Shown in pieces: positions 12,913 to 58,220 of a DNA stretch of 64,000 nt (within the stretch, counting starts at the first letter, position 1; every line of letters begins with the position of its first letter). Below the pieces are notes generated by a model, which did not search any database, was not told where the DNA came from, and worked only from the letters and a program-made list of their open reading frames with translations. The translations under genes and the position numbers were made by a program. Source of the stretch: Desulfofarcimen acetoxidans DSM 771 (GTDB lineage Bacteria; Bacillota; Desulfotomaculia; Desulfotomaculales; Desulfofarciminaceae). Location: contig NC_013216.1 of assembly GCF_000024205.1 (NCBI RefSeq), positions 1,364,001-1,428,000 on the forward strand, in the 5' to 3' direction.

Positions 12913-12922
12913 AATAGATTTT

Positions 12923-12953
12923 GGCAGGCCAAGGGCTTGCCGTTTTTATTTTT
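12923..12953 (+). terminator. Terminator after spoVM
   Basis: GGCAGGCC and GGCTTGCC pair around an AAG loop and are followed by a TTTTTATTTTT tract. It closes the 66-base micro-gene as an independent transcription unit, which supports its being real. Confidence 0.85.
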
Positions 12954-13245
12954 AGTTTAATTATTAAAAACTTTCTCAATTTTAGAGGAATTTTAACTCT
13001 CGATATAGAAAAGAAATTAGTCAGTACTTGTTTATAGTTTCAATAGGCTGAATTTTTGAACTTTTTAAAACAAAAACAATTGTTAATCAATAATCCTCTT
13101 TATGTTATACTAATCTTAAAAAATTAATTTGTAGTATCAGTTTTTTGCCAGATGAAAAAATTGAAGGGAGTGATTATAACTTAATTTATTTAAGTTTATG
13201 ATATGCTGAGCCAATATATTTACGGACTGGAGGGAGCAAGCTTTG
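12954..13245. other. AT-rich leader in front of the first hdr operon
   Basis: No gene is seen here. A TATACT near 13104 could be a -10 box, with a poor TTGTTA -35 at too wide a spacing. No sigma-54 -24/-12 pair was found, unlike in front of the second hdr operon. The operon's ribosome binding site GGAGGG is at the end. Confidence 0.5.
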
Positions 13246-13824
13246 ATGGAAAATGAAATTTGCAGTACGGCCCCCGGAACAGAATTCTCTCCTTCGGGGT
13301 CCCTGTTGCAGGAAATCCAACAGATGACGCACCAGAATATCAGCAGGTGTTATCAGTGCAAAAAGTGCAGCGCCGGTTGTAGTGTAAATTTTGTTATGGA
13401 TTTAAAAGTCAATGAAGTTGTTAGGGCCATTCAACTGGGTGACCGGGAAAGACTTTTAGCTGCTAACAGTTATTGGGTATGTACGGCTTGTAAAACCTGT
13501 AAAAACCGTTGTCCCAATGATATTGATTCGTCTGCCATAATGGATGCTTTAAAAGCCATCGCTATTAAAGAAAACAGGGTTAAGAAGGAAAATAAAATCT
13601 GTCATTTCCATAATTCTTTCCTTACCGCTGTTAAATTGCTGGGTCGTACACATGAATTGGGGATGGTCGGCCTGTACAAGCATAAAACCAAAACTTACAC
13701 GGATGATCTGGAAATGGGTTTAGAAATGTTTAAACGCGGCAAATTTAAAATACTTCCGGAAAGAATACGAGGCACCAAACAGATTAAGAAAATATTCGAA
13801 ATGGCAAAGGAGAAGGATGCATGA
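13246..13824 (+). CDS. hdrC: Heterodisulfide reductase-like subunit C (HdrC)
   Basis: The 192-residue protein has two 4Fe-4S motifs, CYQCKKCSAGC and CTACKTCKNRC-P, in the spacing of HdrC. HdrC passes electrons between HdrA flavin and the catalytic HdrB. TTG 13243 precedes ATG 13246 directly; ATG is taken as the start, after GGAGGG. The stop overlaps the hdrB start by four bases (ATGA). The first of two complete hdrCB pairs in this window; the paralogue at 19524 has the same length and motif order. Confidence 0.93.
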   Translation: MENEICSTAPGTEFSPSGSLLQEIQQMTHQNISRCYQCKKCSAGCSVNFVMDLKVNEVVRAIQLGDRERLLAANSYWVCTACKTCKNRCPNDIDSSAIMDALKAIAIKENRVKKENKICHFHNSFLTAVKLLGRTHELGMVGLYKHKTKTYTDDLEMGLEMFKRGKFKILPERIRGTKQIKKIFEMAKEKDA

Positions 13825-14702
13825 AATACAGTTACTATCCTGGATGTTCACTGCATGCCACGGCTTTAGAATTTGATTTATCCACTAAGGCAGTTTTCAA
13901 TAGCCTCGGGCTGACCTTAGAGGAAGTTCCTGATTGGAACTGCTGTGGAGCAACTTCAGCTCACTCTACCAGTGAAAGTCTAAATATCGGTTTAAATTTA
14001 CGCAACCTGACGATTGCGGAAAGTGCACAAAATGATCTGGTTATACCTTGTGCCGCTTGCTATAACAATACTAAAATAACTGATTACCTGGTTAGAAACG
14101 GTCATGAGCAAGCTAAAGAAATAAACAGTGAGATGCTCTGGACTCTGGGAAAGAGTTATCAAGCTACTATTAATGTCAAGCATGCCCTGGAAATAGTTGC
14201 AACTGATGAGATGCTGGCAAATATCAAAAAGACAGTAGTTAACCCTCTAAAAGGCTTAAAAGTAGCCTGTTATTACGGTTGCTTATTGCTGCGCCCTTCT
14301 AAAATGGTTGCCATTGACGACCCAGAGCAGCCAAAGAAAATGAATAAGCTAATGACTGTATTAGGTGCAGAGCCGGTTAGATGGTCTGCCCAAACGGAAT
14401 GCTGCAGCGGAAGCGCTTCAATATCACAGACCGAGGTTGCTTTAGACTTGGTTAAGAACATTATTGCTTCGGCCAAAGCTTCCGGTGCTGATGTGATAGC
14501 CTGTGCCTGTCCGTTATGTTTTACCAACCTGGATACCAGGCAGCAGAAAGCCATAGAAGAAAAGATTGTTGAGAAACCGATGCCGATACTTTATTTTACT
14601 GAGCTTATGGGACTTGCTATGGGTCTCAAGGATGCCCAGGGCTGGTTAAAGACGCACCTGGTTGAAAGCGTATCTGTATTTGAGTCAGCCAATTTATTGT
14701 AA
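13821..14702 (+). CDS. hdrB: Heterodisulfide reductase-like subunit B (HdrB)
   Basis: The 293-residue protein carries both CCG domains of HdrB: YYPGCS ... WNCCGAT ... CAACY, then YYGCLLLR ... ECCSGSAS ... CPLC. In methanogens these cysteines hold two non-cubane 4Fe-4S clusters that reduce CoM-S-S-CoB; a bacterium needs another disulfide or acceptor, not known here. The soluble form without haem partner agrees with HdrABC. It is coupled to hdrC upstream and 43 bases from the giant hdrA gene downstream. Confidence 0.93.
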   Translation: MKYSYYPGCSLHATALEFDLSTKAVFNSLGLTLEEVPDWNCCGATSAHSTSESLNIGLNLRNLTIAESAQNDLVIPCAACYNNTKITDYLVRNGHEQAKEINSEMLWTLGKSYQATINVKHALEIVATDEMLANIKKTVVNPLKGLKVACYYGCLLLRPSKMVAIDDPEQPKKMNKLMTVLGAEPVRWSAQTECCSGSASISQTEVALDLVKNIIASAKASGADVIACACPLCFTNLDTRQQKAIEEKIVEKPMPILYFTELMGLAMGLKDAQGWLKTHLVESVSVFESANLL

Positions 14703-14745: not shown

Positions 14746-17700
14746 GTGAAGAATGAAGAAAAAACAGTAGGCGCGGCTCTAGTCCTTGGGGCTGGTATTG
14801 CCGGAATGCAATCCGCCCAGGATTTAGCTAACGCGGGCTATCTTGTCCACCTGGTAACAGACAGTCCCTCTGTCGGCGGTAAAATGGGCCAACTTGATAA
14901 AACCTTCCCTACCAATGAATGTGCTATGTGTATGTTAGGTCCTGTAATGAATGAGACAATGTCTCACCCAAATATTAAACTTCATACAGTGTCCAAGTTA
15001 ATAGACGTAGAAGGGGAAGCGGGCAATTTCCAGGTAAAAATAAAGAAAGCACCTCGCTATGTTGATGTTGAGGAGTGTACAGCTTGTAGTGATTGTGAAC
15101 AGGTTTGTCCCGTGGAGCTTCCTAATAAGTACAATCAGGGGATTGGTACCGTTAAAGCTGTTTATAAGTTATTCCCCCAGGCTGTGCCAAACAAATATTT
15201 AATTGATAAAAAAGGTACACCTCCTTGCCGCGAAGCTTGTCCGGCAGGAATTAATGTGCAGGGTTATGTTCAATTAACCAAGGTTAGAAAGTTTGACGAG
15301 GCTCTGGCTCTGGTACATGAAAAGAACCCCCTGGCTTCTATTTGTGGACGCATTTGTACACGTCCCTGTGAGTCTGCTTGTAATAGAGGAAAAGCAGACG
15401 ATCCGGTAGCCATTAAAAATATTAAGCGGTTCTTAGCTGACCGCATATTGTTAGGTGATAATCCCGCTCCTGAAATTACCGTTAAGAAAAATAAAAAGAT
15501 TGCCATTATCGGTGCTGGCCCCGGTGGTTTGGCAGGCGCTAATTTCCTGGCCTTAAAAGGCTATCAAGTTACTATATTTGAAGCTTTGCCGGTTGGCGGC
15601 GGTATGTTAAGAGTTGGTATTCCCGAATACCGCTTAACCAAGGATATTATTGAAGCTGAGATTGCCCGCATTCAGAAGATGGGTGTGGAAATCAAGTATG
15701 GCCAGGCTTTAGGCAAAGACTTTACTTTGGAAAGTTTGAAAGAACAGGGTTATGAAGCGGTTCTGCTGGCTATAGGTTGCCAAAAAGGAACCACTATGAA
15801 TATAGAAGGCACTGATCTAAACGGTGTTATGAACGGTGTTGACTTTCTTCGTAAGGTTAACCTCGGCGAGCCGGTTGTTGTTGGCAAAAAAGTTGTTGTT
15901 GTCGGTGGCGGTAACGTGGCTATGGACGTTGTTCGCTCAGCTATTCGTTTGGGAGCTGAGGAAGCTACTATTGTTTATCGTCGTTCTCAGGATGAAATGC
16001 CCGCTGATCATGAAGAAATTGAACATGCCTTAGAAGAGGGTATTAATCTTGCTATTCTTACTAACCCGACAAAACTTATTGGGGATAAAGGCAGCGTAGT
16101 TAAGATTGAATTGCAAAAGCAAGCGCTGGGTGAACCTGATGCTTCCGGCAGACGCAGACCTGTTCCGGTAGAAGGTTCCGAGTATCTGATGGATGTTGAT
16201 ACTGTGATTATGGCTATTGGCCAGGCTGCCGATATGAACGGTGTCAGTGACAGTATCGTAGGTTCCGGTAAGATTGTAGTTGATAAAAACTCCATGGCTA
16301 CCGGTATGGCGGGTGTGTATGCTTGCGGTGATGTTGTTACCGGTCCTGCCACAGCTGTTGAGGCAATTGCTGCCGGTAATAAAGCTGCAAACGCTATAGA
16401 TTACTATCTGGAGGGCGGCAAGCCGGAAGAATTTAAGTTTGAGTTCTTCCAGGAGGTTCCTCCGTCTGAAAATCCTTTTGTTATGCCGGAAGATATACCG
16501 TTTGAAAATCGTCCGAAAATGCCCATGATCTCTGCCGAGAAGAGAAAGACTAATTTTGATGAGGTTGAGTTGGGTTATACTGAAGATATGGCTGTGGCTG
16601 AAGCAGAGCGCTGTTTAAATTGCGGTGGTTGTTGCGAATGCCTGCAGTGTGTGGATGTTTGTAAAAAGAATGCTATTGACCACAATGCAAGGGAAGAGAT
16701 CGTTGATTTGAATGTAGGTTCCATCGTACTGGTGCCTGGTTTTGATCTGTTTGATGCCAAGCTTAAAGGTGAATATGGCTACGGTATCTATCCAAACGTG
16801 ATCACGAGTATTGAATTTGAGCGTTTCATGAGTCCAACCGGTCCGAAGGGCGGACATATTTATCGTCCGTCTGATCATAAGGATCCGATTAGAGTGGCCT
16901 TTATTCAGTGCGTTGGCTCCAGAGATTGCAACAATGGCTCTGAGTATTGTTCTTCCATTTGTTGCATGTATTCGACCAAAGAAGCTATTATTGCAAAAGA
17001 GCATGACAATCGTATTGAGGCGACTATCTTCTATCTGGATATTCGCTCTTATGGTAAAAACTTTGACAAATACGTTAATTCTGCTAAAGAATCAGGCGTT
17101 CGCTATGTTCGCAGTATGATTTCTAAAATCAAGGAAGATCCCGCTACTAATAATCTGTTTATTAAATATATTGCAGACGGGGAAATTAAGGAAGAAGAAT
17201 TTGATCTGGTTGTACTGGCTATAGGTGTATTGCCGCCGAAGGAAGCCCAGCTTCTGTCCAAGACTGTAGGTTTTGAGTTGAACGAATACGGTTTTGCCAA
17301 GACAGACATGGCTACTCCCACTAAGACAACCCGCGACGGTGTTTTTGTTGCAGGTGCATTCCAGGGTCCGCGTGATATTCCGGAAACAGTTGTTAATGCC
17401 AGTGCTGCAGCCGGTAGTGCCGGTGGTCTGATAGCCAGTGCCCGAGGCACTATGGTTAAAGGAAAAGACTATCCGGTTGAAATTGATGTTTTGGGACAGG
17501 AACCGCGCATCGGTGTATTTGTTTGTCACTGCGGTATAAATATTGCCGGTGTAGTTGATGTTGAAAAGGTTGTAGAAGCAGCTAAAAAGATGCCCGGGGT
17601 TGAGTTTGCGAATAATTACCTGTATACCTGCTCAGAGGATACTGTTAAGAGCATTGGAGATCTCATTAAGGAAAAGGGCTTAAACCGTATTGTTGTAGCC

Positions 17701-19188
17701 TCTTGTACGGTGCGTACTCACCAAGCCTTGTTCAGAGAAGGTTTGAAATTAGGTGGTTTGAACCAGTTCTACTTTGAAATGGCTAACATTCGGGATCAGT
17801 GCTCCTGGGTGCACCGTGATAATCCGGAAAGAGCAACCGAGAAAGCCATTGACTTAGTTAAAGGCGCTATCGGTAAAGTTAAGTATCATGATCCTCTGTA
17901 TTTAGAGCCGTCACCTGTTGTACAAAAGGCACTGGTGGTAGGCGGTGGTATAGCCGGTATGACTGCTGCTCTGTCCTTTGCTGAGCAGGGCTATCCTTGC
18001 TATTTAATTGAGAAAGAAAAAGAACTGGGTGGCACAATGAAGCATATTTACACTAATTTGACCGGTGAAAATATGCAGGAACACCTTAATGAAACCATTA
18101 ACAAGGTTAAGAATAATCCGTTGATTGAGATTTACACCGAAGCGGAATTATATGATTTCCATGGTCATAAAGGTAACTTTGTTTCAACCATTAACCAAGC
18201 CGGTGCCAAGATAGATTTAAGTCATGGTGTGGCTGTTGTCGCTACCGGTGGTAAGGAGAAAACACCGCAAGAGTTTCTGTATGGTGCAAATGACAAAGTC
18301 ATTACCAACCAGCAATTAGAGAGTTTGCTTAATACAGGTAAGTTTGATCCTGCCTCCAAGCAAGTAGTCTTTATTCAGTGTGTTACAACACCGGAAATTG
18401 ACGGTTTAAAATACTGCAGCAGAACTTGTTGCGGACAGTCTGTCAAGAATGCATTGCAGATTAAGAAACAAAATCCGAATACCCAGGTATTTATACTGCA
18501 CCGTGATATGCGTACCTATGGATATATGGAAAAATATTATAAGGAAGCCAGAGAAATTGGTGTTATCTTTGTTCCTTATGACAGCAAGAAGGACATTAAG
18601 GTTAATTCTGCTGCTGATGGTAAGCTGAGTTTGCAGGTTCTGGATGCGGCTTCTCGTACTGTATTGAAGTTGAATCCGGACATCCTGTCTTTAGCCTCCT
18701 CAACAGAGGCTTCAGAAGGAGTGGAAGGTATAGCTAACTTAATGAAACTTACCTTAAACGAGGACGGTTTCTTTGTAGAGACTCACGCCAAATTAGCTCC
18801 GGTGGACTTCCCGTCTCAGGGTATTTTCCTTTGCGGTACAGCCCACTCGCCGAAGTTTGTAGGCGAAGCTATTTCCCAGGCTCAAGGTGCTGTTGCACGA
18901 GCTTGCACCATTTTATCTAAAGAGAACTTAATGGTAGGTGGTGTAGTAGCTGTAGTTGATGAAGATAAGTGTGCTGCCTGCCTGACTTGTGTCCGTACCT
19001 GTCCGTTTGGTGTACCTAAGATTAATGAGCGGCATAGGGCGCAAATTGAATCGGTACAGTGCCAGGGTTGCGGTACCTGCGTTGGAGAGTGTCCTAATAA
19101 GGCTATTCAATTGCAGCATTATAAAGATATTCAGTTAATCGGTAAGGTTGAAGGTATGTTTTATGAGATTAACGATAGTGCCAGTTAA
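14746..19188 (+). CDS. hdrA: Giant HdrA: HdrA half + GltD-like NAD(P)H/FAD module + second HdrA half
   Basis: The protein is 1480 residues, about twice a usual HdrA. In order: an HdrA FAD site (LGAGIAGMQSA, about 13) with NECAMC (Cys59/62); a 4Fe-4S motif CTACSDCEQVCP (111); a glutamate synthase small-subunit-like cysteine region (CREACP at about 160, CGRICTRPC at about 200), its FAD Rossmann fold IIGAGPGGLAG (252) and NADPH fold VVGGGNVAMD (386), ending FACGDV-like; a Cys-rich CLNCGGCCECLQC (623); the rest of HdrA; then a second HdrA starting GVFVCHCG (925), FAD site VVGGGIAGMTAA (1062) and two ferredoxin motifs (1409, 1440). The insert suggests direct NAD(P)H input. It is co-directional with hdrCB; GTG start. 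Confidence 0.9.
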   Translation: MKNEEKTVGAALVLGAGIAGMQSAQDLANAGYLVHLVTDSPSVGGKMGQLDKTFPTNECAMCMLGPVMNETMSHPNIKLHTVSKLIDVEGEAGNFQVKIKKAPRYVDVEECTACSDCEQVCPVELPNKYNQGIGTVKAVYKLFPQAVPNKYLIDKKGTPPCREACPAGINVQGYVQLTKVRKFDEALALVHEKNPLASICGRICTRPCESACNRGKADDPVAIKNIKRFLADRILLGDNPAPEITVKKNKKIAIIGAGPGGLAGANFLALKGYQVTIFEALPVGGGMLRVGIPEYRLTKDIIEAEIARIQKMGVEIKYGQALGKDFTLESLKEQGYEAVLLAIGCQKGTTMNIEGTDLNGVMNGVDFLRKVNLGEPVVVGKKVVVVGGGNVAMDVVRSAIRLGAEEATIVYRRSQDEMPADHEEIEHALEEGINLAILTNPTKLIGDKGSVVKIELQKQALGEPDASGRRRPVPVEGSEYLMDVDTVIMAIGQAADMNGVSDSIVGSGKIVVDKNSMATGMAGVYACGDVVTGPATAVEAIAAGNKAANAIDYYLEGGKPEEFKFEFFQEVPPSENPFVMPEDIPFENRPKMPMISAEKRKTNFDEVELGYTEDMAVAEAERCLNCGGCCECLQCVDVCKKNAIDHNAREEIVDLNVGSIVLVPGFDLFDAKLKGEYGYGIYPNVITSIEFERFMSPTGPKGGHIYRPSDHKDPIRVAFIQCVGSRDCNNGSEYCSSICCMYSTKEAIIAKEHDNRIEATIFYLDIRSYGKNFDKYVNSAKESGVRYVRSMISKIKEDPATNNLFIKYIADGEIKEEEFDLVVLAIGVLPPKEAQLLSKTVGFELNEYGFAKTDMATPTKTTRDGVFVAGAFQGPRDIPETVVNASAAAGSAGGLIASARGTMVKGKDYPVEIDVLGQEPRIGVFVCHCGINIAGVVDVEKVVEAAKKMPGVEFANNYLYTCSEDTVKSIGDLIKEKGLNRIVVASCTVRTHQALFREGLKLGGLNQFYFEMANIRDQCSWVHRDNPERATEKAIDLVKGAIGKVKYHDPLYLEPSPVVQKALVVGGGIAGMTAALSFAEQGYPCYLIEKEKELGGTMKHIYTNLTGENMQEHLNETINKVKNNPLIEIYTEAELYDFHGHKGNFVSTINQAGAKIDLSHGVAVVATGGKEKTPQEFLYGANDKVITNQQLESLLNTGKFDPASKQVVFIQCVTTPEIDGLKYCSRTCCGQSVKNALQIKKQNPNTQVFILHRDMRTYGYMEKYYKEAREIGVIFVPYDSKKDIKVNSAADGKLSLQVLDAASRTVLKLNPDILSLASSTEASEGVEGIANLMKLTLNEDGFFVETHAKLAPVDFPSQGIFLCGTAHSPKFVGEAISQAQGAVARACTILSKENLMVGGVVAVVDEDKCAACLTCVRTCPFGVPKINERHRAQIESVQCQGCGTCVGECPNKAIQLQHYKDIQLIGKVEGMFYEINDSAS

Positions 19189-19198
19189 GCTATAGAAT

Positions 19199-19237
19199 AA
19201 AAAACCGGGGTATGCGCTAAGCATACCCCGGTTTTTT
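19199..19237 (+). terminator. Strong terminator between the two hdr operons
   Basis: A 17-bp perfect stem, from 19199-19215 and 19221-19237, is capped by GCTAA and ends in a T-run. It separates transcription of the first hdr operon from the sigma-54 driven one, so the two are regulated independently. Confidence 0.93.
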
Positions 19238-19257
19238 ATTACTGTTGCATTTAGATA

Positions 19258-19300
19258 ATACAACTGATCATAAATACAACAAGTGTATTCTTATGATACA
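19258..19300. promoter_or_regulatory. Candidate activator-binding region with ATACA/TGTAT half-sites
   Basis: Four half-sites lie in 43 bases: ATACA at 19258, 19274 and 19296 and TGTAT at 19284. They form two overlapping inverted repeats, AATACA-N5-TGTATT (19273-19289) and TGTAT-N7-ATACA (19284-19300). The cluster sits about 100-140 bases upstream of the sigma-54 promoter, where an enhancer-binding protein usually binds. The assignment is inference; the region is AT-rich, so chance is possible. Confidence 0.45.
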
Positions 19301-19399
19301 TCATGTAGAAAAAAAAGGTCTTTTGATAATAATTGAACTCTTGATATTATATTGATATTTTCCTTTAAAACGTACGAATATATAGATTTGTCTGAAAAC

Positions 19400-19415
19400 T
19401 GGCATAAAATTTGCT
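19400..19415 (+). promoter_or_regulatory. Sigma-54 (-24/-12) promoter of hdrCBA-flxDCBA
   Basis: The bases TGGCAT-AAAAT-TTGCT match the consensus TGGCAC-N5-TTGCW. The GG and GC dinucleotides are separated by the required 10 bases. Transcription would start near 19426, about 100 bases before hdrC. Sigma-54 promoters need an ATP-driven activator; no such activator gene is in the window. Confidence 0.85.
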
Positions 19416-19523
19416 TGTATTATGGGCAAGCCTACAATCAATGCCAGTTGTTAAATATAGCGAAATATGCGATAATAAACTAGTGTACTGGCATAAGAGA
19501 TTTAAAGTAAAAGGAGTACTACT

Positions 19524-20105
19524 ATGTCAGCTATAAATTTAACAACCATAATAAAGGATAACCAGGATTTCATTAAATATGTCAGTGGTGAAAGCGGACA
19601 ACCCGTGCAGCAGTGCTACCAATGTGGTAAATGCACAGCGGGTTGTCCGGTTGCCTTAGATATGGATTATTCACCAAACAGTATTGTTCGGATGGTTCAA
19701 CTTGGCTTAAAAGACGAAGCGTTAAGGAGCCAGTCTATTTGGATCTGCGCCTATTGTTCCACCTGTACATCCAGATGCCCGCGCAACATTGACATAGCTA
19801 AAATAATGGATTGCCTGCGTGGGATGGCTAAACGGCAAGGAATAAAGCTGGAGGGCAGAGCAAAAGATATAGCTTTATTTTATGACAGCTTTTTAAATAC
19901 AGTGAAAGATAACGGAAGATTGTATGAATTGGGCATGATGCTTAATTTTAATTTGAAATCAAAGAATTATTTAAGAGATGCGGACACCGGTCTGGCCATG
20001 TTTACACGTGGTAAAATTAAATTCGTACCGATGCGCAATGAAAATTACAAGGAGATGGCTCTGCTCTTTAAAAGAGTTAAAGAATTGGAGGATAAATCCA
20101 AATGA
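19524..20105 (+). CDS. hdrC: HdrC subunit of the Flx-Hdr complex
   Basis: The 193-residue protein has two 4Fe-4S motifs, CYQCGKCTAGCP and CAYCSTCTSRCP, in HdrC order. It is paralogous to the 13246 gene. The start is ATG 19524 after AAAGGAGTAC. The stop overlaps the hdrB start by four bases. As the first gene of a seven-gene run, it would pass electrons from HdrA to HdrB in the NAD(P)H-linked complex. Confidence 0.94.
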   Translation: MSAINLTTIIKDNQDFIKYVSGESGQPVQQCYQCGKCTAGCPVALDMDYSPNSIVRMVQLGLKDEALRSQSIWICAYCSTCTSRCPRNIDIAKIMDCLRGMAKRQGIKLEGRAKDIALFYDSFLNTVKDNGRLYELGMMLNFNLKSKNYLRDADTGLAMFTRGKIKFVPMRNENYKEMALLFKRVKELEDKSK

Positions 20106-20959
20106 GATATGCCTATTATCCTGGTTGCTGTGATCATACCAGCGCCAAAGAATATGATATATCTACAAGAGCAGTCTGCAAGGCATTGGGAATAGAGTTG
20201 ATGGAGATACCTGATTGGAGTTGCTGTGGTTCCACTCCCGGACACAGCACCAGCCACCTGCTTGGAATAGCCTTGTCTGCCCGTAACCTGGCGCTGGTAG
20301 AGGAAATGGGACTTGACTGCACCGCCTCCTGTGCTGCTTGCTACCAGCGTCTGGCCATGGCTAATGTAGAGATGAAAAATGATACCCAACTTTGTGAAAA
20401 AATTAACCACATTACTGGAAAACCTTACCGAGGTGGAGTAAAGGTAAAATCCATATTGGAAGTAATTGCTGAAATGAATCAATCACAAATACTGGCAAAA
20501 GTAGTTAAAAGTTTAAAGAATCTAAAAATTGCTGTTTATTATGGTTGCTTGATGGTTAGGCCCAGGGATATTCAGATAGATGATCCGGAAAACCCGACAA
20601 TTATGGATAACTTGTTGCAGAATTTGGGAGCCCAAACACTGGAGTGGAATTATAAAACTGAATGCTGCGGAGCAGCCTTGGCTATGTCAAATGAGGACAT
20701 AGTATTAAAGTTGGCCAATAAGATTCTTGCCGATGCAAAGTCTGCCGGAGCAAATTGCATTGTTACCGCGTGTCCGCTCTGCCATTTTAATCTGGACATG
20801 CGTCAAAAGAAAGTCAATAAAGCTTATGAAACAGATTACAACTTGCCTGTGTTTTATTTTACACAGCTGGTCGGGTTGGCTCTGGGGATAAAGCCTGAGG
20901 CTTTGTGCTTAAGAGATCATTTTATAGATACCAAGCATATTCTCAAACTGATTGTTTAG
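20102..20959 (+). CDS. hdrB: HdrB subunit of the Flx-Hdr complex
   Basis: The 285-residue protein has two CCG domains: YYPGCC ... WSCCGST ... CAACY, then YYGCLMVRP ... ECCGAAL ... CPLC. Cysteine patterns for two non-cubane clusters are complete. In the Flx-Hdr complex HdrB is expected to reduce a disulfide, perhaps on a protein such as DsrC, which is an inference from Desulfovibrio. Coupled to hdrC by overlap and 35 bases from hdrA. Confidence 0.94.
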   Translation: MRYAYYPGCCDHTSAKEYDISTRAVCKALGIELMEIPDWSCCGSTPGHSTSHLLGIALSARNLALVEEMGLDCTASCAACYQRLAMANVEMKNDTQLCEKINHITGKPYRGGVKVKSILEVIAEMNQSQILAKVVKSLKNLKIAVYYGCLMVRPRDIQIDDPENPTIMDNLLQNLGAQTLEWNYKTECCGAALAMSNEDIVLKLANKILADAKSAGANCIVTACPLCHFNLDMRQKKVNKAYETDYNLPVFYFTQLVGLALGIKPEALCLRDHFIDTKHILKLIV

Positions 20960-20994: not shown

Positions 20995-22977
20995 ATGAAG
21001 CGGGTAGGGGTTTTTGTTTGCTGGTGCGGTTCAAATATTGGCGGTGTCGTTGACGTTGCCAGACTGGCTGCTGAAGCCGGCAAATTTCCATACGTTGTGC
21101 ACAGTGTTGATTATAAATATACCTGTTCAGAACCGGGCCAAAAAATGATTGTTGATGCTATTAAAGAACACCGGCTGGACAGAGTGGTTATTGCGGCCTG
21201 CTCTCCTCGCCTGCACGAGCAAACCTTTCGCAAGACTATTGCCAGGGCCGGTCTCAACCCTTATTTATTGGAAATAGCTAATATAAGGGAGCATTGTTCC
21301 TGGGTCCATAGCAAAGAACCGGAAAAAGCTACTGAAAAAGCAATTGACTTGGTGAGGCGGGCGGTGGCTAAAGTTGTTAATCTGGAACCTCTTTCTGAAA
21401 GCAGCATTCCGATAACAAAAAGGGCGCTGGTTATCGGGGGCGGTATTGCAGGTATACAGACAGCTCTGGATATAGCAGACGCCGGGCACAAGGTAGTGCT
21501 GCTGGAAAAGGAGCCAACCATTGGTGGTAAAATGGTAATGCTGGACAAGACTTTTCCGACTATGGACTGTTCAGCCTGTATCAGTACTCCAAAAATGGTC
21601 GCGGTGGCTGAGCACCCCAATATTGAGCTTTTGACCTGCTGTGAAGTTGTTGAAGTCAGCGGTTATATAGGAAATTTTACGGTGAAGGTTAAGCAGAAAG
21701 CTCGTTTTGTGGATCATACAAAGTGTACCGGGTGCGGTACCTGTTGGGAAAAATGTCCTAAAAAGGTGCCGAGTGAATTTAATCTGAATTTAAGTTTACG
21801 TAAGGCCATATATATTCCTTTTCCCCAGGCTGTGCCCAATAAGCCCAGTATAGATGCGGAAAACTGCAGGTATTTAACTGAGCAAAAGTGCGGAGTTTGT
21901 CAGAAAGTATGCCCGGTGGGAGCTATAGACTATGAGCAAAAAGATGAAAACCTGGAAATAGAAGTCGGTGCTATAGTCATGGCTACCGGCTATGAACTTT
22001 TTGATTGGGCTAAAGCATATGGTGAATATGGTTACGGTAAGTATCCCGATGTTATTACCGGTTTGCAATTTGAGAGAATGGTTAATGCCTCGGGGCCTAC
22101 CGGCGGAAAGATTATCCGTCCGTCAGACGGCAAAGAGCCGAAAAATGTGGTTTTTGTCAAATGTGTCGGCTCCAGAGATGAGGCCAAAGGAAAAGCTTAT
22201 TGCTCACGTGCCTGCTGCATGTATACAGCCAAGCATGCCCATCAGGTTATAGAAAAAATTGCCGATGCACAGGCTTTTGTCTTCTATATTGATGTGAGGA
22301 CTCCCGGCAAAGGTTATGAAGAATTTTATAAACGCACTACGGATGAAGGAGCTCAATATATAAGGGGCAGGGTATCAAAAATCTTAACCAGCGGTGACAG
22401 GCTACTGGTTAAGGGTGCGGATACTCTGATGGGGCGCCAGGTGGAAGTAGAAGCTGACCTGGTAGTCCTGGCTACAGCTATGATACCGGCTAAAACAGCG
22501 CAAGATACTGCCAGGCTGGTAGGTTTTTCAGTAGACGGAGATGGTTTTTATCAGGAGGCTCACCCCAAGCTAAGGCCGGTGGAAACAAATACAGCCGGCA
22601 TATTTTTGGCCGGTACATGTCAGGGACCTAAAGATATTCCTGATACCGTAGCTCAGGCAAGTGCCGCCGCGGTTAAAGTTTGTGTACTCTTTTCCAGAAG
22701 GGAAATGGCAGCTGATCCTATGGTGGCACAAGTTAACCAGTCGATTTGTCATGGTTGCCTGGCCTGCCAAAAAGTATGTCCTTATAAGGCAATCGAAGCT
22801 AAAACTATATCTGAACGTTTAGGCGGGCAAGTCATTGAACGCACCGTAGCTCATGTTAACAGCGGTCTTTGCCAGGGTTGCGGTTCGTGTACTGTAGCTT
22901 GCCGTTCCGGTGCAGTTAATCTAAAAGGTTTTTCTGATGAACAGCTGTTGGCGGAGGTGGATGCTATATGTCTGTAG
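20995..22977 (+). CDS. hdrA: HdrA, flavin-containing bifurcating subunit
   Basis: The 660-residue protein has the full-length HdrA layout: an N-terminal [13 protein letters not shown] segment, an FAD site [13 protein letters not shown] (about 146), SACISTP (about 192), and ferredoxin motifs [12 protein letters not shown] (about 244), CGVCQKVCP (about 300), [12 protein letters not shown] (about 585) and [11 protein letters not shown] (about 626). HdrA FAD splits an electron pair between low- and high-potential acceptors. This one is normal in size, in contrast to the two fused HdrA proteins elsewhere in the window. The stop overlaps flxD by 10 bases. Confidence 0.95.
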
Positions 22978-23402
22978 ACACAGGTGAAAAATACGAGCCT
23001 AAAATTATAGGTTTTTGCTGCAACTGGTGTGCTTATGCAGGAGCTGATTTAGCGGGCATCAGCAGGCTCAGCTATCCCACTAACATAAAAATAATCAGGG
23101 TGCCTTGCTCCAGCAGAGTAAACCCTCAATTTATACTTAAGGCCTTTCAAAAAGGCGCTGACGGTGTAATGGTTTCCGGCTGACATCCCGGCGACTGCCA
23201 TTATGTTAATGGCAATTATTATACCAGAAGGCGTTATCAGGTGTTTAAGCGTTTAATGGAATTTGTAGGTTTTGAACCTGGAAGATTTAATACACGCTGG
23301 ATTTCCGGTTCAGAAGGGGATAAATTTGCTCAAACCGTTAAAGAGTTAAGCGAAAACATTGCCATGCTTGGCCCAAACAAAAAAATGAGGGAAGAAAAAT
23401 GA
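22968..23402 (+). CDS. flxD: FlxD/MvhD-type iron-sulfur subunit, selenoprotein (Sec at residue 72)
   Basis: MvhD-family proteins hold a [2Fe-2S]-type cluster that feeds HdrA. The frame from ATG 22968 meets TGA at 23181-23183 after 71 codons, then continues in frame to TGA at 23400-23402, giving 144 residues. The first part reads [13 protein letters not shown] ... GADGVMVSG; the second reads [17 protein letters not shown]. In cysteine homologues this junction is GxH-GDCHY with Cys at the TGA position, so the codon is read as Sec. A stem-loop follows the TGA. A standard gene finder would call a truncated 71-residue gene. The end overlaps flxC. Confidence 0.92.
23196..23214 (+). promoter_or_regulatory. 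Bacterial SECIS-like hairpin for the flxD UGA
   Basis: TGCCATTA (23196-23203) and TAATGGCA (23207-23214) form a perfect 8-bp stem with loop TGT. It begins 12 bases after the UGA, within the coding frame, as bacterial SECIS elements do. The G-U of the loop agrees with the usual SelB contact, though loop rules are loose. selB and selC are not in the window. Confidence 0.8.
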
Positions 23403-24361
23403 ATAATATCACTCTGGAATTAAGAAAACAGGCCAGGAAGTTATTAGAGGATCAGGTTGTTCAACTGGTTATCGGTTATGGAAGGGGTTCTGACCCTTTC
23501 CGTGTAACACCTGTTTTTGTACGCCACCCGGACTTTGTGGACAGCCTTATCTGGAATCCTTTTTGTATTAATAACCTGGCCAAGTATTTAATTGAATACA
23601 GGTATTTGCCCGGTAAAATAGCTGTGGTGATTAAAGGCTGTGATTCACGTGCGGTTAACCGTTTGATTCAAGATAATCAAATAGAACGGGATAAAATCGT
23701 TTTGCTGGGCGTTCCCTGCACCGGTATTCTGGAGGCGGAGAAAGTTGCCAAGACAACAGGTTATCAATTGGAACTGGAAAGGTGCAGCGAGCAAGAGGAG
23801 AAGTTTACTTTGCATACATCAAGCGGTGACTTCAGTTTTGCTGCAAAAGACAGCTTAATCACTAAATGCTATAGCTGTTATAATCATAATCCGGTAGTGT
23901 TTGATATAATGCTGGGACCTGCAGCTAAGGAAAACCCGGCAGCGGTTAAGTACTCAGAGGTTGAAAGTTTGGAGAAATTGAACGTTAAGGAAAAAAGTGA
24001 ATACTGGGATATGTATTTCAGCCGCTGCTTGCGTTGTTATGCTTGCCGCAATGTATGCACGGCCTGTACCTGCCAGGAGTGTATCTTCAATCAGGCTAAA
24101 CCTGCCTGGGTAGACAGAATAAATAACCTGTCCAACAACACCTCTTTTCATTTAATCAGAGCTTTTCACGTAGCCGGGCGCTGTGTGGATTGCGGCGAGT
24201 GTGATCGAGTCTGTCCGGTGAATATACCCTTGAGACATTTAAACCAAAAGATACTTAAAGATCTGCAGGAGTTATACGATGCCCCGATTCCCGGTGCAGA
24301 CCTTGAAACTGGCCCGGCACTGGGCTGCTTTGTGACTGAAGACCCGGAAGAATTTATGTAG
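23399..24361 (+). CDS. flxC: Flx complex iron-sulfur subunit (FlxC-like)
   Basis: The 320-residue protein starts with a non-cluster domain rich in the FrhB/HcgC-like pattern (VIKGCDSRAVNRL, VPCTGI), followed by a cysteine-rich centre (CYSC, SRCLRCYACRNVCTACTCQEC) and a CVDCGECDRVCPVNIP ferredoxin motif. In the Flx-Hdr complex it should link FlxA/B flavin and the FlxD cluster. ATG 23399 overlaps the flxD stop by four bases. Naming follows operon order rather than a strict orthology test. Confidence 0.85.
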   Translation: MNNITLELRKQARKLLEDQVVQLVIGYGRGSDPFRVTPVFVRHPDFVDSLIWNPFCINNLAKYLIEYRYLPGKIAVVIKGCDSRAVNRLIQDNQIERDKIVLLGVPCTGILEAEKVAKTTGYQLELERCSEQEEKFTLHTSSGDFSFAAKDSLITKCYSCYNHNPVVFDIMLGPAAKENPAAVKYSEVESLEKLNVKEKSEYWDMYFSRCLRCYACRNVCTACTCQECIFNQAKPAWVDRINNLSNNTSFHLIRAFHVAGRCVDCGECDRVCPVNIPLRHLNQKILKDLQELYDAPIPGADLETGPALGCFVTEDPEEFM

Positions 24362-24404: not shown

Positions 24405-25445
24405 ATGCAATACAAAGTTTTAGAGAAGGATAAAATATCTGGCTTTTTGGACTACCTTGCCAGTAAACATAACCTGATGGCGCCTGTCTCAGAAGATGAG
24501 AGTTTTAGTCAATTTAAGAGGGTTTATCAAGCTTCCGAGATAAATCTAAACTATACTAATACTGTTATACCTCCTAAAAATTATTTTTTCCCACCTGCGG
24601 AGAATTTATTTTCTTTTTCTGCAGAAAATGGGGGAATTGAGATTAAAGAATCAAGACAAGCTGAAAACATGGTTATATTTGGCTTAAGACCTTGTGATAT
24701 CAATGGCATGTCAATGCTTGACCCGGTTTTTAACGGTAATTTCCCGGACAGTTATTATGGTCCGAAAAGGGAAAGAACTATACTTATCGGTTTAAGTTGC
24801 CAGGAGGTAATGCCTACCTGTTTTTGCAAGTCCTTTGGTACAGATCCAACTGATGGGTCAGGTGCCGATTTAATGCTGACAGGTTTAGAAAATTGTTTTT
24901 TGGTAGAAATCCTGACTGATAAAGGCGCCGGTCTGCTTGAGAATGCCGGCGGGTTTTTTAGTGATGAGTCAGTGGATAAGGCTATATCAGAAAAAAAGCT
25001 GTTAAGAGATAAACTGGCAGGCGCTTTTCTGCGCGAGCCTGATTTATCGGGGGTAAAAGAAATACTGGATAAGAATTTTGAACACCCTTACTGGGAGGAA
25101 TTGGCGGCTAAATGTATCGGCTGCGGCATATGCACTTTTGTTTGTCCTACCTGTCATTGTTTTAATATGATTGACACCAGCCGGCCTGACGCAACCGGCA
25201 GTCGCTACCGCTGCCATGATTCCTGTATGTTTCCCGGTTTTACTAAAATGGCCGGTGGACATAATCCCAGGCCAACCAGAGTGGAGCGTGTTCGAAACAG
25301 ATTTATGCATAAACTTAAATACCATCTGGATCGATATAATCTGGACGGGTGCAGTGGCTGCGGCAGGTGCATTGCCAAGTGTCCCGTAAATATAGATATC
25401 AGTCAAATAATAACTCATATCAGGGAGGTAGTTAAGGATGACTGA
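24405..25445 (+). CDS. flxB: Flx complex subunit B-like, 4Fe-4S protein related to AsrA/HydB
   Basis: The 346-residue protein shares the layout of anaerobic sulfite reductase A and NAD-linked hydrogenase beta subunits: a long N-terminal domain (FGLRPCDINGM, LIGLSCQE) and two C-terminal ferredoxin motifs (CIGCGICTFVCPTC and CSGCGRCIAKCPVN). The start is ATG 24405, 44 bases after flxC. It overlaps flxA by eight bases. It would carry electrons between the NAD(P)H flavoprotein and the Hdr part. Confidence 0.88.
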   Translation: MQYKVLEKDKISGFLDYLASKHNLMAPVSEDESFSQFKRVYQASEINLNYTNTVIPPKNYFFPPAENLFSFSAENGGIEIKESRQAENMVIFGLRPCDINGMSMLDPVFNGNFPDSYYGPKRERTILIGLSCQEVMPTCFCKSFGTDPTDGSGADLMLTGLENCFLVEILTDKGAGLLENAGGFFSDESVDKAISEKKLLRDKLAGAFLREPDLSGVKEILDKNFEHPYWEELAAKCIGCGICTFVCPTCHCFNMIDTSRPDATGSRYRCHDSCMFPGFTKMAGGHNPRPTRVERVRNRFMHKLKYHLDRYNLDGCSGCGRCIAKCPVNIDISQIITHIREVVKDD

Positions 25446-26289
25446 TTTAACCGGCGGTAATCCTTTGCTGCCTAATATAGCCACAATTGCAAGCATCAGG
25501 AGAGAGACAGGTGATGTGAAAACCTTTCAAGTGGTTTTTGATGATCCGTTGGCAGTACAAAGTTTTGCCCACAAGCCAGGCCAGGTAGCGCTTATTTCAG
25601 TTTTTGGTGAAGGGGAGGCAACTATATCTATTACCTCTTCACCCACTGTTAAAGGTTTCTTGGAATTCAGTATCAAAAAGGTAGGCCGGCTGACTTCTGT
25701 TTTGCATGAAATAGAGGCAGGTGCCAAGGTTGCTGTGCGCGGGCCTTACGGAAACGGTTTTCCCCTTGATGAGATGAAAGGTAAGAATTTGCTGTTTGTG
25801 GGCGGCGGTATCGGCCTGGCCCCGCTGCGCTCTCTAATTGATTATGTGTTGGCTGAGGAAAACCGCAGTGACTATGGAAATGTGGAGATTCTTTACGGTG
25901 CCAGGTCCATGGCGGATATATGCTTTAAAGAGGATTTATTTAATAAATGGACTGCCTGCAAGGACACCAGGGTATATACGACTATTGACCGGGAAGAGCC
26001 GGAATGGAGCGGTCATGTCGGTTTTGTACCGGCCTACCTGGAAGAAATAAAGCCAGTATCAAATAATAAGGTTGCTATTACCTGTGGTCCTCCGGTGATG
26101 ATTAAATTTATTTTGATGAGCCTGCAAAGACTGGGTTTTACTGAGGAGAGAATTATTACCACCTTGGAGATGAAAATGAAATGCGGTATTGGTAAGTGCG
26201 GCCGCTGCAATATCGGCAGCAAGTATGTATGCCTGGACGGTCCTGTTTTTACATTGAAGCAGCTGAAGGAACTGCCGCCGGAATTTTAA
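25438..26289 (+). CDS. flxA: Flx complex NAD(P)H:FAD subunit (FlxA-like)
   Basis: The 283-residue protein is a ferredoxin-NADP reductase-like flavoprotein of the AsrB/HydG kind. It has an N-terminal FAD barrel, the GPYGNGFPL flavin loop, the LLFVGGGIGLAPLRSL nucleotide site, the CGPPVMI motif, and a C-terminal [2Fe-2S]-type site CGIGKCGRCNIGSKYVC. It should take hydride from NAD(P)H for bifurcation. It is the last gene of the operon; a two-hairpin repeat rather than a T-rich terminator follows. Confidence 0.9.
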   Translation: MTDLTGGNPLLPNIATIASIRRETGDVKTFQVVFDDPLAVQSFAHKPGQVALISVFGEGEATISITSSPTVKGFLEFSIKKVGRLTSVLHEIEAGAKVAVRGPYGNGFPLDEMKGKNLLFVGGGIGLAPLRSLIDYVLAEENRSDYGNVEILYGARSMADICFKEDLFNKWTACKDTRVYTTIDREEPEWSGHVGFVPAYLEEIKPVSNNKVAITCGPPVMIKFILMSLQRLGFTEERIITTLEMKMKCGIGKCGRCNIGSKYVCLDGPVFTLKQLKELPPEF

Positions 26290-26466: not shown

Positions 26467-26930
26467 TTATAGAAGACGGTGTGGCCGGGAGGCTACGCCG
26501 TCTGTCTGTTTTTTGAGCATTTCATCGGTTAATTCAGGTATATTCAGTATGCCCACGCCATTATAGACAATCTCTACTTTCTGCTTACGTTTACCACTGC
26601 TTTTGTTAGGTGAATGGATGATAATCTTCGAGATAAACTCATTTAGAATTGTTGGCGTAATCTCTTGTATATCTGTATATTTTCTGACTGTTTCAAGAAA
26701 CTGATCGGTATCTTCTGCCTGCTGTTCTTCCGCAGATAGTTCTCTTGGTAAATCAAATACTTTGTTCTGTAAATTCCTCTGCTCAGCCTCTTTTGTTCAT
26801 CAGCGGATTTCTTGCTTACTTGCTTGACAAATACCTGCTCAAACTGCCTCACGTACTTTAAACTTCCCTTATGAAATGAACGGAGCATGTTCCTGTGTTG
26901 CTTTTGTAATTGGAACAAACAAATATAGTT
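26467..26930 (-). pseudogene. Remnant of a large serine recombinase (DUF4368 C-terminal end)
   Basis: Translating the minus strand gives a fragment from about 26715 down to TAA at 26467-26469 containing TPTILNEFISKIIIHSPN and KQKVEIVYNGVG, typical of the DUF4368 end of Tn1549/Tn4451-type recombinases. Further upstream a second frame carries a coiled segment (KYVRQFEQVF), with a frameshift around 26770-26790. The catalytic resolvase domain is missing. It is a decayed mobile-element relic between flxA and the ECF sigma gene. Confidence 0.75.
26474..26514 (+). terminator. Hairpin with T-run after flxA repeat
   Basis: Arms AGACGGTGTGGCC (26474-26486) and GGCTACGCCGTCT (26491-26503) pair with two G-T pairs, loop GGGA, then TTTTTT at 26509-26514. 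It could end the hdr-flx transcript 185 bases after flxA. It also overlaps the recombinase remnant. Confidence 0.7.
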
Positions 26931-53664: not shown

Positions 53665-53748
53665 GAAGGGAAGAACAAAAAAATATTGACGCGAATCTAA
53701 TGAAATGTTAACATATCTCAAAAGATAAAAAATATCATAAAAACTATG

Positions 53749-54030
53749 ATGGAGAAAAGTAGGACGGTTTTCGATCTTTCAGGGAGGGGTTAGCCGTGAC
53801 TGTAAGCAGCCCTAAGCATTCACCGTTTGAAGTTCGCTCCTGAGTTATCAGGCTGAAACACCTGCAAGTAGGCCTGATCGGAAACTTTCACCGTTAAAAG
53901 AAGATGGTATCGGAAATATTTTTTTCGGTTACTTATAGAGTTGTCTGCCGGATCTAAGACGCAGATTAATATGGGTGGTACCGCGAAAGACAGAACTTTC
54001 GTCCCGTAGTTTATACTACGGGATTTTTTT
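53749..54030 (+). promoter_or_regulatory. T-box riboswitch leader, probable tRNA-Phe specifier
   Basis: The leader has a stem I with the AGTA of the specifier loop (53758-53761) and GGGAGGGG further on, a downstream T-box core ATGGGTGGTACCGCG (53971-53985), and a terminator, CCCGTAG/CTACGGG with T-run (54003-54030). On the 3' side of the specifier loop GAA-G-TTC-G (53829-53836) puts TTC, a phenylalanine codon, at the specifier position. The paired stems GGAG/CTCC and CGGT/ACCG flank that loop. The specifier was assigned by eye. Confidence 0.88.
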
Positions 54031-58057: not shown

Positions 58058-58134
58058 GGAGCTGTGGTGTAGTGGCCTAACATGCCGGCCTGTCACGCCG
58101 GAGATCGCGGGTTCGACCCCCGTCAGCTCCGCCA
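58058..58134 (+). tRNA. tRNA-Asp (GTC)
   Basis: A 77-base cloverleaf: acceptor GGAGCTG/CAGCTCC, anticodon loop with GTC, T loop GTTCGAC, with CCA encoded at 58132-58134. The promoter at 58004 and a terminator at 58233 enclose it with tRNA-Gly in one transcript. Confidence 0.96.
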
Positions 58135-58145
58135 TACATACACAC

Positions 58146-58220
58146 GCGGAAGTAGCTCAGTGGTAGAGCATCGCCTTGCCAAGGCGAGGGTCGCGAGTTC
58201 GAATCTCGTCTTCCGCTCCA
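58146..58220 (+). tRNA. tRNA-Gly (GCC)
   Basis: A 75-base cloverleaf: acceptor GCGGAAG/CTTCCGC, anticodon stem TCGCC/GGCGA with loop TTGCCAA and anticodon GCC, T loop GTTCGAA, CCA encoded at the end. It follows tRNA-Asp by 11 bases. Confidence 0.96.

Follow-up and report, generated by a model that had tools for sequence, protein, structure and literature searches.

The hdrA-L gene in the window (the 64,000-nucleotide stretch of the Desulfofarcimen acetoxidans DSM 771 genome analyzed here) probably encodes the HdrA subunit of an HdrABC-type bifurcating or confurcating flavoenzyme in which, judging from its residues, a StnC-type module would make the inserted-ferredoxin (inserted-Fd) port an NAD(P)(H) port. 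Most likely, NADPH is connected here to the port at which an HdrA complex would otherwise serve ferredoxin. The domain order, the ligands, their conservation, and the operon described below are direct observations.

The hdrA-L operon

The genome of this sulfate-reducing bacterium is a single contig, and the hdrA-L frame is uninterrupted. The genes and signals of the region are as follows:

12922-12942 (+), candidate terminator ahead of hdrC1
13243-13824 (+), hdrC1, 193 aa, two [4Fe-4S] (Pfam Fer4_8/Fer4_17, NCBIfam CoB_CoM_SS_C)
13821-14702 (+), hdrB1, 293 aa, two CCG domains (PF02754, E = 1.4e-24; TIGR03288)
14746-19188 (+), hdrA-L, GTG start, tandem HdrA with a GltD/StnC-like insert, 1480 aa
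19524-20105 (+), hdrC2, 193 aa (family profile matches)
20102-20959 (+), hdrB2, 285 aa (PF02754, E = 6.2e-26)
20995-22977 (+), hdrA2, full canonical HdrA, 660 aa (NF040770 over residues 3-658, E = 2.7e-260)
22968-23402 (+), mvhD (PF02662, E = 5.8e-53), in-frame TGA at 23181-23183, predicted Sec, MVSG-U-HPGDCHY
23399-24361 (+), flxC-like Fe-S protein, 320 aa (weak FrhB/AsrA similarity)
24405-25445 (+), flxB-like (HydB/AsrA-type) Fe-S protein (NF040833, E = 3.2e-72)
25438-26289 (+), flxA-like (HydG/AsrB-type) FAD/NAD(P) subunit (PF00175; PRK08345, E = 5e-74)
26474-26503 (+), candidate intrinsic terminator past flxA, 13-pair stem and T run

A sequence-only reading had placed the chain in an operon with HdrB and HdrC. 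Both partners are indeed encoded directly upstream (hdrC1-hdrB1), but that reading did not mention the second hdrC/hdrB set downstream with hdrA2, the Sec-mvhD, or the flxC, flxB, and flxA homologues. The flxC-like gene is syntenic with flxB and flxA homologues across many loci. Promoter and terminator scans of the region gave site counts at chance level.

The mvhD gene was missed by the ORF callers. The genome encodes tRNA-Sec and SelA. A stem-loop at 23196-23214, past the TGA, folded no better than shuffled sequences in a SECIS energy test (z = -0.40). Because this energy was unremarkable, the prediction of Sec relies on the conserved position together with tRNA-Sec and SelA.

Domain organization of HdrA-L

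The chain is divided as follows:

14746-15213 (+), residues 1-156, TrxR-like FAD domain 1, first part, with C59/C62 and the inserted-Fd cluster C111, C114, C117, C121
15214-16629 (+), residues 157-628, permuted GltD/StnC-like insert (9bov_A, 2.1e-131; 8oh5_C, 3.7e-115)
16630-17490 (+), residues 629-915, second inserted-Fd cluster C629/632/635/639 and remaining FAD domain 1, with E692, K745, and C722/735/739/740
17491-17919 (+), residues 916-1058, N-terminal HdrA Fe-S domain of half 2, C927, C929, C962, C987 (5odc_A 2-174)
17920-18927 (+), residues 1059-1394, TrxR-like FAD domain 2, without inserted Fd and without Cys197, with E1192/K1234
18928-19188 (+), residues 1395-1480 and stop, C-terminal 2x[4Fe-4S] ferredoxin domain (Pfam Fer4; 5odc_A 508-652)

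The three FAD sites, single NAD(P)H Rossmann site, and many 4Fe-4S motifs claimed earlier for the 1480 residues were all located. The FAD motifs are GAGIAG (15-20), GAGPGG (256-261), and GGGIAG (1066-1071), and the NAD(P) motif is GGGNVA (387-392). Nine [4Fe-4S] sites are predicted, with conserved ligand Cys. In the FAD1 site, T38 stands where the family mostly has Glu or Asp after beta-2, a point against the mechanism proposed below.

In PDB alignments, residues 11-156 and 629-843 aligned to residues 146-291 and 293-510 of HdrA (5odc_A), the latter match being assigned to the domain 629-915, and residues 158-636 aligned to StnC/NfnB. Since the StnC/NfnB match falls between the HdrA segments, the insert is flanked on either side by one cluster of the HdrA inserted-Fd domain: C111-121 come first, then 157-628, then C629-639, the arrangement of a type III HdrA. 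The GltD-like block is thus internal, as had been proposed, and it splits the inserted-Fd domain of half 1. Structure prediction, suggested earlier as a check, gave confident models below the full 1480-aa length (pLDDT 87.7 and 89.0) with the folds of HdrA, NfnB, and StnC.

An insert of the StnC type

The FAD and NAD(P) motifs of the insert, whose binding loops had also been singled out beforehand for checking, are present, and the GltD-like FAD/NADP(H) module is complete, with R412-R413 accompanying the NADP motif. Residue mapping and conservation identified Cys 161/165/204/208/212/623/626 and K227 as ligands of two clusters; C626 and C629 are separated by only two residues. K227 and R296 correspond to K170 and R239 of StnC, and K227 is kept in 110 of 126 family sequences. 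An RCLxC motif (C623/C626) lies C-terminal to GltD, and the proximal cluster has Lys as a ligand, both as in StnC, whereas NfnB has Glu at that cluster. By these residues the insert is assigned to the permuted StnC type and not to the bifurcating NfnB type, which is new in this analysis.

It is very likely that NAD(P)H is handled within the HdrA chain, as the sequence-only reading had held, because all ligands for NAD(P)H, FAD, and 2x[4Fe-4S] are present, the predicted fold is confident, and the Moorella homologue oxidizes NADH (PMC9430772, PMC5861303). A bifurcating GltD FAD like that of NfnB, giving two bifurcating centers per chain, has been suggested for ANME-1 HdrA9-11. The fold of the modeled insert is NfnB-like (4ylf_B, TM 0.81), and R296 is retained as the counterpart of NfnB R201 and StnC R239. 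However, K227 disfavors this model, the proximal Lys being that of the non-bifurcating StnC, and the annotated genes of the operon include no NfnA-type partner; we regard a second bifurcating center as very improbable.

Two complementary HdrA halves

The second HdrA half that had been recognized earlier spans residues 918-1480, but the two halves are not equivalent: half 1 lacks the N-terminal HdrA domain and has C62, and half 2 has the N-domain and lacks Cys197 and the inserted-Fd domain. C62 corresponds to Cys197 of methanogen HdrA (phmmer to 5odc_A 146-291; invariance), and 22 related loci have a TGA codon at its position. The Cys197/inserted-Fd stretch of half 2 had no Cys in 116 of 127 aligned rows. 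The alignment suggests that the Cys197-type ligand absent from half 2 is supplied by C62 of half 1, a proposal new in this analysis. For ANME HdrA3/4, the described order of the halves is opposite to that in HdrA-L. By its domain order, HdrA-L would be a type II and a type III HdrA at once.

Counterparts of the HdrA cluster Cys386/399/403/404 occur in half 1 (C722/735/739/740) and half 2 (C1212/1224/1228/1229). The bifurcation residues E692/K745 of half 1 (E356/K409 in HdrA) were invariant (126/126), whereas their half 2 counterparts, both present in HdrA-L itself, are eroded in the family (E1192 in 77 of 126 sequences, K1234 in 87). This invariance in half 1 against drift in half 2 speaks against HdrA-L being a non-bifurcating wire that simply conducts electrons from NAD(P)H to HdrB/C or to a different partner. 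The wire is compatible with the Moorella complex, for which the published work describes NADH:benzyl viologen activity and reports neither coupled bifurcation nor a second acceptor; we consider it unlikely.

Relatives and distribution

The tandem HdrA/GltD fusion is not new; it is already partly described for Moorella, Dred_1327, HdrL, and archaeal type III HdrA. In Moorella thermoacetica, the 1487-aa HdrA that belongs to the MetFV-HdrABC-MvhD methylene-THF reductase has this architecture and oxidizes NADH (PMC9430772, PMC5861303). It resembles HdrA-L in length, in three predicted FAD sites and one NAD(P)H site, and in an E/K pair per half. The M. stamsii orthologue (L064), found with metVF, is 58% identical to HdrA-L and a near neighbor in the tree; its E696/K750 are numbered like the published pair of M. 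thermoacetica HdrA, and its NAD(P) site has Leu-Glu where HdrA-L has Arg-Arg. The Moorella operon contains metVF; the hdrA-L operon (1.377-1.390 Mb) lacks it and instead adds hdrCBA2, Sec-mvhD, and flxCBA. MTHFR genes occur at 0.55 and 1.307 Mb. A metabolic tie to metVF as in Moorella was rejected, because metVF lies about 70 kb from the operon, beside a different HdrA that has no insert.

In Desulfotomaculum reducens, NADH oxidation was proposed in 2016 for Dred_1327 (HdrA1), whose cluster is sulfate-induced (PMC4759654). This homologous tandem fusion (1481 aa, L059) is 47% identical to HdrA-L, but it has the Leu-Glu motif, no adjacent FlxA, and a 1018-aa tandem as the second HdrA. HdrL of Desulfobacterium autotrophicum is an HdrA/glutamate-synthase fusion with an NADH site and an MvhD partner (PMC2702500), likened here by description; HdrL proteins are in part selenoproteins. 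Archaeal type III HdrA and ANME-1 HdrA9-11 share the NfnB/GltD insertion within the inserted-Fd domain, but archaeal type III has one TrxR domain, and no HdrA in the survey exceeds 1182 aa, against 1480 for HdrA-L (PMC12054007, PMC9012536). StnC of the Stn transhydrogenase is a permuted GltD with a Lys ligand that serves as NADPH input module (PMC10482914, 8OH5), fused to NuoG/FdhF parts rather than to HdrA. By gene content, the hdrA-L operon combines HdrABC with FlxA/B/C-type proteins and MvhD, as does FlxABCD-HdrABC of Desulfovibrio vulgaris, but it encodes two HdrA proteins. Flx-associated HdrA is not known to carry a GltD insert.

Of 113 genomes in the host's order, at least 49 contain the fusion, and its loci were found in about a dozen phyla. 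An assembly error, which the sequence-only reading had left for checking, was rejected along with a frameshift artifact: the assembly consists of a single contig, and genomes of that order and dozens of others share the fusion.

Relatives frequently switch the NADP-binding Arg-Arg motif to Leu-Glu. Leu-Glu never occurred beside FlxA (0/14 versus 35/60), a pattern noticed post hoc. The association of FlxA with Arg-Arg (Fisher p = 3.8e-5) is likewise post hoc and involves non-independent relatives; with kinship considered, no more than three contrasts had support, none of them in the opposite direction, and the nominal p from a likelihood model was 0.016. The choice of cofactor is probably encoded at this site, Arg-Arg being NADP-type and Leu-Glu NADH-type.

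Proposed mechanism

We infer the electron route, the composition of the complex, the preference for NADPH, and the direction as follows. The single chain would fold into an HdrA pseudo-dimer by itself. The bifurcating FAD, with E692/K745, would be in half 1, together with the inserted-Fd clusters and C62, the Cys197-type ligand that would complete the N-terminal cluster domain of half 2; the C-terminal ferredoxin arm of half 2 would accept electrons from MvhD. Electrons of NAD(P)(H) would travel from the GltD FAD through the K227/Cys cluster, the C623/C626 cluster, and the inserted-Fd cluster (C629...) toward FAD1. The port that delivers low-potential electrons to ferredoxin in methanogens would thereby be an NAD(P)(H) port. 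HdrC1/HdrB1 would make up the disulfide branch, and a second, NADH-linked input would come from MvhD(Sec)-FlxCBA, perhaps via HdrA2. Ferredoxin might also be reduced by this complex via HdrA2, which would count against the scheme.

The sequence-only reading, in which the Flx donor module becomes unnecessary, is not supported for an operon carrying MvhD and FlxC/B/A homologues, nor by the presence of FlxA near the fusion in 35 of the 74 loci with enough flank. Such a chain would use NAD(P)H as mid-potential donor and send electrons to ferredoxin and HdrB with no Flx or hydrogenase partner, a model already proposed for Dred_1327 (PMC4759654) and partly for archaeal type III HdrA. HdrA-L does contain the NAD(P)H module, and the D. 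reducens (G056) and Moorella loci have no adjacent FlxA. However, the insert takes up the ferredoxin-reducing domain, and half 2 offers no inserted Fd as a substitute; this model seems improbable to us. Because the insert sits in what is the ferredoxin-reducing domain in archaeal HdrA, it may stand in for ferredoxin instead of supplying it with electrons.

A stronger and rather speculative form of the NAD(P)(H)-port proposal is that NADP(H) permanently takes ferredoxin's place at the low-potential port, giving a disulfide-driven, ferredoxin-independent transhydrogenase. NADH would enter via FlxCBA-MvhD and electron pairs would be split at FAD1, one branch reaching a disulfide (e.g., DsrC-type) via HdrC1/B1 and the other reaching NADP+ at the GltD module. 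This would explain why an Arg-Arg GltD and an NADH-type Flx module share one operon, and why Leu-Glu inserts are absent beside FlxA.

Giant fusions of HdrA occur widely among sulfate reducers, acetogens, and uncultured anaerobes, and the only biochemistry found is that of the Moorella protein. The residue evidence indicates which flavin should bifurcate, the GltD subtype, and the probable site of cofactor choice. The vague notion that NAD(P)H feeds HdrA becomes a specific, testable question of which carrier occupies the ferredoxin port, and that carrier matters for how the energy of sulfate reduction and of acetate oxidation is budgeted.

Domain layout and distribution of the fused HdrA

The window belongs to a genome of one contig (4,545,624 bases), and its ORF at 14746-19188 (+) encodes the 1480 residues of hdrA-L. 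Comparison with solved structures gave the matches below.

Residues of hdrA-L matched to solved structures
11-156: HdrA 146-291
158-636: StnC, NfnABC, and NfnB chains
629-843: HdrA 293-510
918-1090: HdrA 2-174
1333-1474: HdrA 508-652

By these boundaries, the insert falls precisely where the inserted-ferredoxin domain of half 1 (residues 1-915) passes from its first cluster motif to its second. This confirms the sequence-only reading that the GltD-like block lies inside the first HdrA and not at an end, and the last two matches bear out the second HdrA half that it had also proposed. Half 2 (916-1480) follows half 1 and, in the same comparison, lacks an inserted-ferredoxin domain. AlphaFold models of residues 1-1200 (pLDDT 87.7, pTM 0.79) and 916-1480 (pLDDT 89.0, pTM 0.83) were confident. 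They matched methanogen HdrA (e.g., 8rwn_A, TM 0.93 on target, with an alignment of sufficient length to pass over the insert; for half 2, 5odc_A, TM 0.86 on query) and also resembled NfnB (4ylf_B, TM 0.81) and StnC.

In the HdrA of Moorella thermoacetica (162.8 kDa), a GltD domain interrupts the TrxR domain, and there are sites for three FAD and for one NAD(P)H (PMC9430772). A 2016 study proposed that Dred_1327 is the NADH-oxidizing HdrA of a sulfate-induced cluster (PMC4759654); its homologue in genome G056 has a domain order identical to that of hdrA-L. Related systems are HdrL (PMC2702500), HdrA9-11 of ANME-1 (PMC9012536), and type III HdrA (PMC12054007). Proteins of this kind were thus already known, and hdrA-L adds one more example to a published architecture.

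Some match was present in 106 of the 113 genomes of the order and, counted among the matches listed, a junction-spanning fusion in at least 49. A scan of species genomes found at least 80 loci with a match; the matches listed came from Bacillota, Desulfobacterota, Chloroflexota, Spirochaetota, Armatimonadota, Cloacimonadota, Delongbacteria, Gemmatimonadota, Acidobacteriota, SAR324, and some archaea. Most loci found had the order TrxR1-[GltD]-TrxR1-Ndom-TrxR2-CFd (1350-1690 aa). A shorter GltD-inserted class (about 900 aa; loci L060, 7057-9768, and L061, 8422-11130) is common in the order; its partners are MvhD and a 577-aa HdrA.

Flavin sites, Cys62, and the type of the insert

Conservation was assessed in 126 proteins of this domain order, a few duplicates included. 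E692 and K745 of half 1, which correspond to the bifurcation residues E356/K409 of methanogen HdrA, were invariant, whereas their equivalents in half 2 were eroded (E1192 in 77/126, K1234 in 87/126). This contrast points to FAD1 as the best candidate for the flavin that bifurcates.

In the methanogen enzyme, the N-terminal cluster of an HdrA subunit takes a ligand, Cys197, from the partner subunit (PMC9012536). The equivalent here is C62 in half 1, which lacks the N-terminal domain; half 2 has that domain with its four Cys and lacks the Cys197 equivalent. Chadwick et al. described the same half-to-half complementarity in the tandem HdrA of ANME and in that of Moorella. Codon 62 is TGA in 22 related loci, a trait of many Desulfobacterota-type relatives, and automatic annotation would therefore cut these fusion proteins short.

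Loci with TGA at codon 62
(a) L067, L070, L076, L082, L085, L087, L089, L091, L092, L099, L100
(b) L103, L104, L113, L116, L118, L120, L122, L124, L129, L131, L135

The recurrence of TGA strongly hints that position 62 is a functional metal ligand, and implies that selenocysteine would ligate a [4Fe-4S] cluster in these relatives.

In canonical GltD and NfnB, RCLxC precedes PPCxxxCP, whereas in hdrA-L, as in StnC, it is placed after the GltD fold (C623/C626). K227 and R296 correspond to the StnC ligand K170 and to StnC R239, respectively; position 227 is Lys in 110 of the 126 proteins, and NfnB has Glu there. Since the FAD of StnC is reported to be non-bifurcating (PMC10482914), the insert most probably serves as an NAD(P)H input/output module rather than as a second site of bifurcation. 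C629, the first ligand of the second inserted-ferredoxin cluster, is only two residues after C626, which links the GltD chain straight to this domain; in methanogens the domain passes low-potential electrons to ferredoxin.

NAD(P) motif and association with FlxA

The NAD(P) site of hdrA-L ends in YRR (R412/R413), which we take to be an NADPH-type motif as in GltD proteins. LEN or LES replaces it in the nearest relative (L043, 75% identical) and in Moorella stamsii, and a tree of 106 sequences shows no fewer than 17 changes of the motif. Among 74 loci with enough flank, FlxA was nearby in 35 of 60 with Arg-Arg versus 0 of 14 with Leu-Glu (Fisher p 3.8e-5, for a hypothesis formed after seeing the data); the association was weaker in kinship-aware tests. 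One Leu-Glu copy 4.9 kb from a FlxA gene (L051) was not counted because an Arg-Arg fusion is closer to that gene. In G034, a Leu-Glu relative of the same family, no FlxA orthologue was found at the hdrA2 loci; its only FlxA-like gene, 50% identical, is located elsewhere.

The M. stamsii orthologue (L064) combines Leu-Glu with E696/K750, at the positions published for M. thermoacetica HdrA. That enzyme oxidizes NADH according to the literature, which agrees with our reading of the motif.

The operon and neighboring loci

hdrC1 and hdrB1 precede hdrA-L. A gap of 335 bp separates it from the genes downstream, which are, in order, hdrC2, hdrB2, hdrA2 (full-length canonical), mvhD, and FlxC-, FlxB-, and FlxA-like genes. 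The gap (19188-19524) contains an extended −10-like promoter candidate at 19323-19350. The closest terminator-like sites are before hdrC1 and after flxA, such sites occurring at chance frequency. Because of an in-frame TGA, mvhD was missing from every ORF list.

mvhD: 22968-23402, in-frame TGA at 23181-23183, context SG-U-HPGDCHY

MvhD homologues have Cys at this position. As the genome encodes tRNA-Sec (69 bits) and SelA, the TGA is probably read as selenocysteine. The supposition that the fusion makes the Flx donor module unnecessary was not borne out: mvhD and the FlxC/B/A-like genes are part of the same run of genes as the fusion, contrary to replacement in this operon.

A second MvhD with TGA occurs at about position 1,300,408 of the genome, which also has a second hdr locus (L146, 6846-16953; about 1.297-1.307 Mb) with a tandem HdrA without GltD (1005 aa), flxC/B/A, a 416-aa HdrC/HdrD-like protein, mvhD, metV, and metF, adjoining genes that resemble Wood-Ljungdahl (acs) genes. 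The window also contains a T-box leader (53737-54009, 111.9 bits) and two tRNA genes (58058-58217).

Proposed electron flow

In the scheme that we consider most likely, NADH electrons would enter through MvhD(Sec)-FlxCBA, HdrC1/B1 would form the disulfide branch, and NADPH would exchange electrons with FAD1 via the inserted-ferredoxin port. The genome encodes one DsrC, a plausible candidate for the disulfide partner. In a less likely and more novel reading, NADP+ would have replaced ferredoxin as the low-potential acceptor.
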